Source: Candidatus Saccharibacteria bacterium HGW-Saccharibacteria-1
GTDB taxonomy: Bacteria > Patescibacteriota > Saccharimonadia > Saccharimonadales > Saccharimonadaceae
Direction of reading: 5' to 3'
Assembly (NCBI GenBank): GCA_002839415.1
Contig: PGXZ01000001.1
Span: 1 to 57,258, forward strand
DNA: 57,258 nucleotides
The translations under genes and the position numbers were made by a program. The notes under the pieces are model-generated. The model had not been told where the DNA came from. It saw nothing but the letters and a program-made list of their open reading frames with translations, and searched no databases. Positions 32,596-39,766 of this stretch are shown here, in pieces; the first letter of the stretch is position 1; every line of letters begins with the position of its first letter.

Positions 32596-33741
32596 CTAGA
32601 ACGTTGGCGTACAAATATAAGTTAAGGTTGTAGTGTATAGACCGGCAGTTTGGCTACCGGGTACATTTACTATGTATGATACGGTATAGATTTGAGCGTT
32701 GGTTGCTCCGCTACTCGTTGCTACCGATTCACCGGTTGTAAATTTAAATTCATCAACTACGTTATAATTTGCTGTTGCAGCACCTTTACGATCTGTACCA
32801 TTCGATGCAAGCGAAAGCTCTGCACCTACTGCTAAGGTCGAGGTTGCGGTTGTATTAAGTTTTAAGTTTAATCCAAATTGCCCAGTACCTCGTGCGCCTG
32901 GAAGGCGTGAGTTCATAGGTGCGACTTCATTAGAGCCTGACTTTAGTGTTGGTCCGTTTACCGTTATGCTATAACCTCCAGTTGCGTTGGTCGACGCAGC
33001 CATCTGCGACGTAGCTGTTGCGGTATCAGTAGGTGAGAATAGCTGATTGAAGGTAACTGCTGATTCTGTCGCCGAGCTACAGTCTGGAATACTATCAGGT
33101 GCTATTGCGGTAATAGTCTTAGCTGCGCAAAACACTAGTGACTCGGGCATGGTACCGCTCAGGACAATTTGCGTTGATGTGCTAGCGGCAACAGTGCCTG
33201 CATCGATTGGAATGCCAGTCGTGTCAGTACTGGCGTAGGTTGAAATACGAACAAAGAAAGTCATCTTTGTTGGATCGGTGATGCTAGGGTTCACGACACC
33301 ATCAAATCGATACGAAACAGGTGTATTAGCGGGGACGGATACAGCAGATGCACGCGAAATATACATGACGCCAGCAGACGGTTTAGTTAATGTAATAAAA
33401 CCAGTAGCGCCGGTTTCGTTTTCTTGGGTGGCGCCAGCAAGACTGAGACCAGTAGGTACGGTACAGGCTTCGGATGCAGTCGTACAGTACTCGAATTTAA
33501 TCGAACCAACACTGGTATTGCCAGTAGACGGCAAGGTAAAGCTAAAGTCATGTCTAACGTTTCCACTTACTTTTGCGCCAGCATCGCCAGCTCCGCCAAC
33601 GCCACCAGCTTTCAATGTCAAGCTACGCTGCGTTATTTGATCAGCAGCTTTTGCATTCTGTGCATTAAATATTGGACTGACAATCGTCGCTAATAAAACT
33701 ATACATACAAGTACTCTAAATAATTTGGCGTCTGCCCTCAT
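32596..33741 (-). CDS. Secreted surface protein, paralogue 1
   Basis: A 381-residue exported protein with a signal peptide (cleavage near AKA, about residue 32) and a beta-rich body. Its second half shares long near-identical stretches with the 33834-35054 product: PESLVFC, FNQLFSPTDTATATSQM, SITVNGPTL and a C-terminus of YIVNVPGSQ then TYICTPTF. The two arose by tandem duplication. Conserved cysteines may pair. ATG 33741 has GAGGGG at good spacing; ATG 33759 is an alternative leaderless start, because an extended -10 lies just upstream. It is coupled to the DUF916-like gene. Confidence 0.75.
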   Translation of the reverse strand: MRADAKLFRVLVCIVLLATIVSPIFNAQNAKAADQITQRSLTLKAGGVGGAGDAGAKVSGNVRHDFSFTLPSTGNTSVGSIKFEYCTTASEACTVPTGLSLAGATQENETGATGFITLTKPSAGVMYISRASAVSVPANTPVSYRFDGVVNPSITDPTKMTFFVRISTYASTDTTGIPIDAGTVAASTSTQIVLSGTMPESLVFCAAKTITAIAPDSIPDCSSATESAVTFNQLFSPTDTATATSQMAASTNATGGYSITVNGPTLKSGSNEVAPMNSRLPGARGTGQFGLNLKLNTTATSTLAVGAELSLASNGTDRKGAATANYNVVDEFKFTTGESVATSSGATNAQIYTVSYIVNVPGSQTAGLYTTTLTYICTPTF

Positions 33742-33765
33742 ACTGCCCCTCACTCTCATATGAGG

Positions 33766-33833: not shown

Positions 33834-35054
33834 TTAAAACGTAGGTGTGCAGATGTATGTCAAGGTAGTTGTGTATGATCCGGCAGGTTGGCTACCAGGT
33901 ACGTTTACGATGTATGAAACTGTGAATATTTGTGCGTCGCTTCCGCCGAGGGTTTGGGTTGTACCGTCTACATAAGCGCTATTTGCGACATCATTCTGAC
34001 CGGCAGCTGTGTTGAACTTGAATCTATCAACGGTATTATATCCAGCTAGGGCTTGGCCTTTGAAATTTGTGCCGTTTGAGGCTGATGCGACTTCGGTACC
34101 GACTGCAACAGTTGACGTAGCGACCGTATTAGCACGCAGGTTAAGCCCAAATTGGCTAACTCCGTGCAGCGTCTGTTCCATGTTGGTCATGGCTGATATG
34201 GAGTTTGTACCTGACATTAAGGTTGGTCCGTTTACGGTAATTACATAGCCAGAGCCGGCATTTGTTGATGCGGACATCTGTGAAGTGGCAGTGGCAGTGT
34301 CGGTAGGCGAGAATAATTGATTGAAACGGACTTCACTGTCATCTGCGGCCGTACAATCTGGTACATTCGGTACAGTAACGGTTAGTGGAACTGTCTTACC
34401 GGTACAGAAGACGAGAGATTCCGGCATGTAGCCCTGTAAGTCGATGCCGTTGTTCGTGCTGGCAGCAACTGTACCATTGTCGATTTGTCCGCTAAGGCTG
34501 TCTTCTGCAGTATAGGTAGTTATACGAACAAAGAATGTCTGGCTAAGAATAGTTGGGGTTGTTTCAGTAGGGTTCTTGATGTTTTCGAATTCAAAGGTTA
34601 ATGGGGTGTCTGCAGGAATTGCAGTTTCCGCAGCACGATTCAATCGCAGTGTACCATTTACGCTTTTATCTAGTGCAAAGCCGCCGCTTCCAGTGCCGGT
34701 AGCATTTAATAGGGCAGTGACTTTTGCGCCACTCAGGGTCGTATCAAGACCTGTTGGCATTACGCAGACATTTGCGCCAACATCAGCTGCCGTTAAACAA
34801 TATTGAAACTTAATTGATTTAATGACACCGCCGCCAACATTGGGCACTGTAAATGAATATGCGTGATTAACTACTGCGCCCGGCTCTGAGCCGGTTGTAT
34901 TACTATCGCCAGCTTTAAGTGTCAGGCTGCGGTTAACGATTTGGGTAGCGCCATTTGCATTGCTGACAGGAATAAACTGTACAAGCAGTACACTTATAAG
35001 TAGTGCGGTACTTATTAGTCGCTTTATAGAGGTGGTTTTAAGCTGTTTATTCAT
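33834..35054 (-). CDS. Secreted surface protein, paralogue 2
   Basis: A 406-residue exported protein with a signal peptide (hydrophobic core about 12-30) and the same body and C-terminal pattern as the neighbour at 32596. Shared segments include VNRSLTLKAG (QRSLTLKAG in the neighbour), PESLVFC, FNQLFSPTDTATATSQM and the final TYICTPTF. The family was not named. It is separated from paralogue 1 by 92 nt and has its own upstream promoter candidate (TTGACA at 35144-35149 on the minus strand, 18-bp spacer, TGC-TATTCT), so the copies can be expressed separately. Confidence 0.75.
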   Translation of the reverse strand: MNKQLKTTSIKRLISTALLISVLLVQFIPVSNANGATQIVNRSLTLKAGDSNTTGSEPGAVVNHAYSFTVPNVGGGVIKSIKFQYCLTAADVGANVCVMPTGLDTTLSGAKVTALLNATGTGSGGFALDKSVNGTLRLNRAAETAIPADTPLTFEFENIKNPTETTPTILSQTFFVRITTYTAEDSLSGQIDNGTVAASTNNGIDLQGYMPESLVFCTGKTVPLTVTVPNVPDCTAADDSEVRFNQLFSPTDTATATSQMSASTNAGSGYVITVNGPTLMSGTNSISAMTNMEQTLHGVSQFGLNLRANTVATSTVAVGTEVASASNGTNFKGQALAGYNTVDRFKFNTAAGQNDVANSAYVDGTTQTLGGSDAQIFTVSYIVNVPGSQPAGSYTTTLTYICTPTF

Positions 35055-36065: not shown

Positions 36066-37115
36066 ATGGCCAAAGATAAACCTTCAGAAACAAAAATAAA
36101 ATCATCTGAACCGCCAACTCCTGAGACATTAAAGCCTCAAGATGAAACCGTGCCGCCCGCTCCCGTAGTCCACAGTACGATTGGCAAGGGCAAGGAGAGT
36201 CGGATGGCGCGTCATTTAAATTACCGTCCCAGTCACAAGTCGACCTTTATTGGTATCGGTATCGTTGTTTTGATACTGGCAGCTAATGCTGGTGTGATTG
36301 CCTTTATTTTAAGAGGTCAAACTGCAACTACGTCCGAAGTTAGTTTGGGCGGAGTCAAGATTAGCCCAGCCGTGCTGGATACTTTAGGGGTAAATAAGAC
36401 CTCAGTTGGCAACCTGGGCACTGAGCTAATAGTTAATCCAAATTCAAAGTTTAATGGAAAGGTGACTGTTGGCGGTGATGTGAATATTGCTGGTCAGCTA
36501 ACGTTAAACAGCAAGTTTTCAGCCTCCGAGGCGAGTTTGACTAAGCTTGAGGCTGGTGAAACGTCTTTATCAAAATTAAATGTTAATGGCGATGGTACAA
36601 TCTCTAATCTTAACTTGCGAAATAATTTAATTGTAGTCGGCTCGACGACACTACAAGGGGCGGTTACGGTTAGCCAACTGTTGACGGTTAATAATAACCT
36701 GAATGTAACAGGTAACCTGGCCGTTGGTGGAACTTTGTCTGCTAGGAATTTTCAAGCCAGCAGTTTAGTGTCAGATACCACCTTGACGATTGGTGGTCAT
36801 ATTATAACACGAGGCTCGGCACCATCTGTTAGTCCCGGTAATGGCATGGGAACTGGTGGTACAGTATCGATAAGTGGTAATGATGCGTCGGGAACGATTG
36901 CTGTTAATGTTGGCGTAAACAGTACTGGCGGAATGTTAGCCTATGTCAATTTTAGGATGGCATATTCTAACACTCCACATGTAATAGTAACTCTAGTTGG
37001 CGGCCCTGGCGTAGGCACATTATATGTTAATCGAAGCGCGGCTGGATTTAGTGTTGGTGTAAATGGTTCGATGCCGCCAGGTGGTTATGCGATTGATTAT
37101 GTTGTGATGCAGTAA
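36066..37115 (+). CDS. Membrane-anchored beta-repeat surface protein
   Basis: A 349-residue protein with a Pro/Lys/Glu-rich cytoplasmic part of about 58 residues, one membrane helix (about 60-82) and an exterior domain of short beta repeats (GKVTVGGDVNIAGQLTL, LQGAVTVSQLLTVNNNLNVTG). A compact C-terminal domain follows and ends YAIDYVVMQ. The repeat style suggests a trimeric or beta-helical stalk like those in phage fibres and adhesins. It is the only plus-strand surface gene in this island. TATACT at about 36033 and AAGG 8 nt before the ATG give a normal leader. No family name is assigned. Confidence 0.78.
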   Translation: MAKDKPSETKIKSSEPPTPETLKPQDETVPPAPVVHSTIGKGKESRMARHLNYRPSHKSTFIGIGIVVLILAANAGVIAFILRGQTATTSEVSLGGVKISPAVLDTLGVNKTSVGNLGTELIVNPNSKFNGKVTVGGDVNIAGQLTLNSKFSASEASLTKLEAGETSLSKLNVNGDGTISNLNLRNNLIVVGSTTLQGAVTVSQLLTVNNNLNVTGNLAVGGTLSARNFQASSLVSDTTLTIGGHIITRGSAPSVSPGNGMGTGGTVSISGNDASGTIAVNVGVNSTGGMLAYVNFRMAYSNTPHVIVTLVGGPGVGTLYVNRSAAGFSVGVNGSMPPGGYAIDYVVMQ

Positions 37116-37136
37116 GTGATATCTAAAAAATTCCAA

Positions 37137-37266
37137 TGTTGCACGTACCCGACGCAAGAGACTGTGAAATCGGTTGTAATAACCGATTTCAGCCGAACGC
37201 TCATTATATAGCTCCCTGCGGAGCTATATAATGAAAAGTGTGCTCCTTGCGTGGGTATGTGCAGCA
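37137..37266. other. Three-way-junction palindromic element
   Basis: A 17-bp closing stem joins 37141-37158 to 37246-37262 with one G-A mismatch and one bulged G, extending outward by a few pairs. Inside are an 11-bp perfect hairpin (37165-37175 with 37181-37191, loop GTAAT) and a 15-bp perfect hairpin (37201-37215 with 37220-37234, loop CTGC). It lies between two convergent gene ends. It has no T-run, so it is not a simple terminator. It could be a structured RNA, a REP/MITE-like element or a protein-binding cruciform. Confidence 0.7.
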
Positions 37267-37279
37267 GTAGGAACTATAA

Positions 37280-39766
<2,487 letters not shown>

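Follow-up and report, generated by a model that had tools for sequence, protein, structure and literature searches.

Why are two convergent genes in a member of the Saccharibacteria separated by a long palindrome that folds into a three-way junction, and to what kind of element does this palindrome belong? The locus lies in the window, a 57,258-nt stretch of contig PGXZ01000001.1 of Candidatus Saccharibacteria bacterium HGW-Saccharibacteria-1 (genome G000). The initial annotation regarded such a fold as very unlikely to arise by chance, and this was borne out when positions 37130-37270 of the plus strand were folded: the predicted energy is -73.6 kcal/mol compared with -33.4 +/- 3.6 for 200 dinucleotide shuffles (z = -11.1), none of which (0/200) was as stable. 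The three helices were also recovered as described, with a closing stem of ~21 pairs including a mismatch, a first hairpin of ~11-12 bp and a second, perfect hairpin of 15 bp. The extent of 126 nt, in contrast, did not hold, since inverted-repeat alignment extends the palindrome to ~176 nt (37116..37291) with an outer stem that is interrupted in places. Its left limit at 37116 is the base right after the stop codon of the neighbouring gene, and its right limit at 37291 lies 12 nt within atpC. The locus is composed of the following features:

36066..37115, plus strand: convergent neighbour gene of 349 aa, syntenic in relatives, with its stop directly before the 5′ arm
37116..37291, plus strand (element strand): entire palindrome, bounded by P1, from the fold and from inverted-repeat alignment to 12 nt inside atpC
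37116..37160, plus strand: 5′ arm of P1, in which the outermost GTGATATCTA matches the 3′ end of atpC in inverted orientation
37161..37165, plus strand: junction J1/2, ACTGT, near-invariant across the family (alignment, pattern scan)
37166..37190, plus strand: P2 hairpin, GAAATCGG...CCGATTTC (fold, covariation count)
37191..37197, plus strand: junction J2/3, AGCCGAA, near-invariant (alignment, pattern scan)
37198..37242, plus strand: P3 hairpin with CGC/GTG, an A-rich bulge and a 15-bp perfect stem, 37201-37215/37220-37234 (fold, covariation count)
37243..37291, plus strand: 3′ arm of P1, whose final 12 nt are the native atpC 3′ end with its stop codon
37280..37543, minus strand: atpC-like ATP synthase epsilon gene, convergent, overlapped by P1

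Elsewhere in the window, tandem paralogous genes on the minus strand (32596-33759 and 33834-35054) encode putative secreted proteins with a common start, NRSLTLKAG, and a common end, LTYICTPTF. Moreover, two divergent ATP-synthase alpha/beta-type gene sets are apparent in this genome (contigs C27 and C11), one of which is in the window; their beta subunits are ~43% identical.

The palindrome is a member of a family. As had been noted, the window holds a single copy, and three more were found elsewhere in the same genome by DNA search and covariance model (contigs C6, C29, where the copy is decayed, and C15, where P2 is lost), which brings the total to four. The proposed covariance-model search of relatives, run with a model of the core, detected copies in 9 of the 28 genomes of the genus. 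The copies have a constant core, P1-ACTGT-P2-AGCCGAA-P3-GWGTGCT, in which the single-stranded junction bases are nearly invariant in the family alignment. The compensatory changes that the initial annotation had asked about are present as well: 17 of 34 pairs in P2, P3 and P1 have changed on both sides, a count that none of 500 shuffles reached (0/500). A spaced exact pattern of the three conserved strands (AGACTGTG, AGCCGAACGC and GWGTGCT) scanned against 84,980 genomes matched 35 stretches, all of them in Saccharibacteria, including oral taxon 348 and Nanosynbacter, or in MAGs without a taxon name. In a survey of the class, 21 of 295 genomes were positive; these fall into nine genera of one family and carry up to 14 copies in a single genome (14 in G004, 9 each in G044 and G208, 7 in G016 and 6 in G008). 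Such patchiness, combined with so strongly conserved a core, hints at a mobile element which has to be recognised. No match to the element was obtained in phages, plasmids or viral contigs, and no Rfam family (release 15) was reached at the gathering threshold. An Rfam identity was rejected after searches at gathering and permissive thresholds, as all matches were sub-threshold and caused by stable hairpins; the best of them, RT-5, scored 23.1 bits against a gathering threshold of 45.7 and lay on the opposite strand. No account of repeats of this kind in Saccharibacteria or CPR bacteria was found in the open-access literature, to which the search was confined.

Some copies (L029, L030, L032, L034, L037, L038, L041 and L066, in G016, G003, G043 and G017) are located within longer conserved non-coding repeats, with an A module that extends to -270 (TCAAACATACTCGGATAGC...ATTTTACGGCAACTC) and a B module (GGGTCCTGCCG...CACCGAACGTCACCCG). 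We considered these modules as a parent element and rejected this, as they are common to only some of the copies in these four genomes and no transposase is nearby. In addition, adjacent inverted pairs of elements occur in G044 (L108/L109 and L111/L091) and in G051 (L161), and one site carries a single element in G044 and a pair in G051.

The closing stem also carries information on strandedness. Among 30 distinct P1 stems, mismatches comprise 51 G.U and 17 A.C (P = 4e-5, shared ancestry not being corrected for); P2 has a slight trend in this direction (9:2), and P3 has none (3:5). An excess of G.U would follow from folding of the AGACTGTG strand, be it as RNA or as single-stranded DNA, and we infer from it that the element acts as a folded single strand of this one polarity.

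The element seems to insert at random with respect to gene orientation: according to automatic ORF calls, the neighbouring genes are in all arrangements (10 tandem +, 11 tandem -, 5 convergent, 5 divergent). Further copies are found in frame, several of them antisense, within tlyA, mutM, mnmA, dnaX, an ABC-F gene, methylase genes, the rnhB-yraN linker and others. At the site in the window, the stop-to-stop distance is ~0-20 nt in six relatives, ~65 in G010 and 164 nt in G000, while G004 carries a different copy there in reverse orientation. Empty orthologous sites were identified for the copies at atpC, mutM, tlyA and a methylase gene. Furthermore, G157 carries identical 144-nt units in dnaX and between rnhB and yraN; as their flanks are unrelated, these units show recent movement, and no direct duplication surrounds either of them. 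Separately, the rplU-parA intergenic site of genus g18 carries the element in six or more genomes, with both orientations represented, and may be an insertion hot spot or hold a long-retained copy. Split matches at the same position of tlyA in other genomes had suggested further copies; the one that was read, in G069 (L223), proved to be a different sequence: its TlyA has a non-homologous in-frame insert of ~47 aa at the same loop.

What the initial annotation could not see is that the closing stem changes completely from copy to copy, and that target sequence is often included in it in inverted form. P1 pairs over ~30 bp in each copy, and in G000, G004 and G044 its sequences are unrelated from copy to copy; L009 and L011, for example, differ at ~2 of 84 core positions and have unrelated P1 arms. 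The clearest case is tlyA of G044. Several relatives have a tlyA without the insert (DKPDIIVIDVSF), and the insert amounts to a net gain of 114 nt, whereas the hairpin measures 143 nt and its right arm is wholly native coding sequence. The tlyA palindrome contains an exact 25-nt inverted repeat of which one arm encodes the conserved native residues IDTPDIVLI and the other is the inverted copy. At the rplU site of the oral-type genus, three genomes have stems (L242, L238 and L247) that take in the last 8-14 nt of rplU, with the inverted copy beyond the core, and in a fourth (L235) it is the T-run of the rplU terminator that is copied in inverted form. The window copy has 12 nt of atpC within its stem. 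Thus P1 is templated on the target in many copies: tlyA demonstrates this, rplU and atpC give strong indications of it, and mnmA and L110 partial ones. These native-arm cases were picked by inspection rather than from a pre-set list, tlyA being the only fully conclusive one; a native arm is not assignable in L110 and most intergenic copies. Target templating is also not universal, because some copies carry their own stem: arms are common to the G016-type copies, the G157 units moved whole, and the mutM copy brings its stem with it. The sample consists mostly of MAGs, in which misassembly might conceivably create inverted copies; against this, unrelated assemblies show the same pattern, a good many stems are imperfect and the reading frames stay open.

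We therefore consider it probable that the palindrome in the window is a copy of a non-autonomous mobile element of Saccharibacteria which acts as a folded single strand and in which the target often serves as the template for P1. Among the possibilities originally listed (a structured RNA, a REP/MITE-like mobile element or a cruciform recognised by a protein), it is the MITE/REP-like one that gained support, from the many copies, the empty sites, the in-frame insertions and the two identical copies in unrelated genes. The recognised part would be the three-way-junction core, namely J1/2 ACTGT, J2/3 AGCCGAA and the base of P3 with its A-rich bulge. The element inserts between genes in any orientation or in frame inside genes, and many copies appear to have a stem whose outer 20-30 bp are native target flank on one side and its inverted copy on the other. 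As a possible route, the folded strand could join the target by one end, whereupon its free 3′ end, which is already paired where the core stem begins, would prime the synthesis of ~25 nt copied from the neighbouring target strand, and the second junction would form only afterwards. After insertion, template switching during replication may keep the inverted repeat perfect and sometimes flip the core in place, and in other lineages the finished hairpin moves as a unit with its stem, as shown in G157. The more specific proposition that only the folded core of ~100 nt is inherited, the stem being built at each insertion by inverted copying of ~25 nt of target so that the target is duplicated in inverted rather than direct orientation, is put forward tentatively, at somewhat less than an even chance. 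If the stem is indeed copied from the target at insertion, an inverted target duplication is left behind; to our knowledge, this signature is known in no other element.

One competing explanation, which we regard as unlikely and yet deserving serious attention, is that an RPE/MITE-like palindrome always moves with its own stem and that the inverted flank copies are made later, solely by template switching during replication at the inverted repeat, through homogenisation of the arms, extension outwards and inversion of the spacer. It is consistent with the identical complete units in G157 and with the arms common to copies of G016, G003 and G043. Moreover, published work has demonstrated both the homogenisation of arms and the inversion of spacers by replication template switching (PMC8604942, PMC8794818), and cores are inverted at shared sites: L098 in G044 and L172 in its sister G051 have cores that are 94% identical in opposite orientation between co-linear flanks of 82-87% identity, and each orientation has its own perfect stem. 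P1 also remains paired in copies whose core is decayed (L050) or deleted (mnmA of G051). Separately, in the orthologous copies L237 and L245, with flanks 82% identical, the stems appear on side-by-side reading to have changed in step at two positions. Template switching may be a source of the inverted target copies, as an alternative to a mechanism coupled to insertion. On the other hand, a unit moving with its stem does not explain why tlyA gained just 114 nt and yet holds a 143-nt hairpin with a native right arm, and near-identical cores whose P1s are unrelated almost up to the core would need full replacement of their stems.

It is improbable that the copies represent a conserved functional non-coding RNA family, trans-acting or cis-regulatory, whose copy number has expanded in some genomes. 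The near-invariant junction nucleotides, the covariation and the preference for G.U over A.C in P1 would suit an RNA, as would the retention of the element after rplU in six genomes of one genus. However, neighbour orientation looks random, in-frame copies inside genes are several times antisense, the core flips in place and most relatives lack the element, which is present in only 21 of 295 genomes. A functional RNA is not needed, because copies occur in every orientation to genes and their distribution is patchy.

A REP-type element moved by a Y1 (RAYT/IS200-like) transposase has still less to recommend it and is very unlikely. The strand-specific folded palindrome is reminiscent of such elements, and Y1 proteins of RAYT size (~210 aa) are encoded in many genomes of the genus, but the element has neither GTAG nor another fixed end, and no match to Y1_Tnp (PF01797) was obtained in G004 (14 copies, 99% complete), G000, G208, G044/G262 or G157, where an enzyme could have been lost after the spread. 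Likewise, RVT_1 reverse transcriptases (PF00078) were not detected in G004, G208, G262, G157 or G016. Both enzymes were rejected as mobilisers, as their presence does not correlate with that of the element. Because they are missing from several of the richest carriers, the element is non-autonomous, or relies on a different enzyme or the replication of the host, or no longer has its partner. As a separate observation, the Y1_Tnp proteins in many genomes of this genus measure 200-230 aa, and the B module is a possible target repeat for them.

Insertion into the loop of a pre-existing palindrome would account for a stem unique to each copy; it has hardly any probability, as the empty sites of L110 and tlyA contain no palindrome, which refutes it at both loci. 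A long bidirectional transcription terminator fits the position of the window copy between convergent genes, but is next to inconceivable and, as a general explanation, refuted by the in-frame copies inside genes: the initial annotation rightly saw more than a terminator, there being no T-run or terminator-like site, 0-20 nt suffice at the same place in relatives, and other copies lie between divergent genes.

Of the known systems, the nearest kind to this mobile element is the Rickettsia palindromic elements (RPE), palindromes of ~100-150 bp in the reduced genomes of host-dependent bacteria, which have no known transposase and are located between genes as well as in frame within conserved genes (PMC10969869, PMC3733652). 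The Saccharibacteria element resembles them in its size, palindromic structure, host-dependent reduced genomes, in-frame insertion and lack of a known transposase, and is itself an interspersed palindrome of 100-150 bp found in frame within genes. It differs in host range and, to judge by the exact-pattern scan, apparently in sequence, and also in its three-way-junction core and in a stem which varies between copies and is often target-derived. It is a new family with a different architecture. The Saccharibacteria, oral TM7 lineages among them, gain with it an element family that had not been described, and it provides a natural test case for the spread of bacterial palindromic elements without an obvious transposase. 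The mobile DNA of Saccharibacteria has been little studied.

REP and BIME sequences are likewise small repeated palindromes, some of them within replication and repair genes, but REPs measure 20-40 bp with a stem of 5-13 bp and a fixed GTAG or CGTC tag at one end (PMC3733652). The Saccharibacteria element, in contrast, spans 120-176 bp with a stem of ~30 bp, its ends differ between copies without a fixed tag, and, unlike GTAG REPs, it has no matching Y1 transposase (RAYT) in its richest carriers. MITEs, which have fixed terminal repeats and direct target duplications, are similarly short, non-autonomous, present in many copies and bounded by terminal inverted repeats. Here, the terminal repeats are common to the G016-type and G157 copies but unrelated in G000, G004 and G044, and the one identical pair, in G157, lacks a direct duplication. 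The attC sites of integrons are folded single-strand palindromes of variable sequence with conserved unpaired bases, which our element shares; attC sites also have R/L boxes and form cassette arrays. As judged by eye, the Saccharibacteria copies are single and lie outside cassette arrays, and the window copy shows no terminal RYYYAAC/GTTRRRY; their conserved part is an internal three-way junction instead of terminal R/L boxes. Finally, the hairpins generated by replication template switching also have perfect stems that are created or repaired and spacers that are inverted (PMC8794818, PMC8604942). The published examples are located in ordinary genes, whereas those described here are tied to a repeated conserved core. 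Comparison of sister species captures both the homogenisation of arms and the inversion of spacers at these sites, so that template-switch ideas can be tested on them directly.
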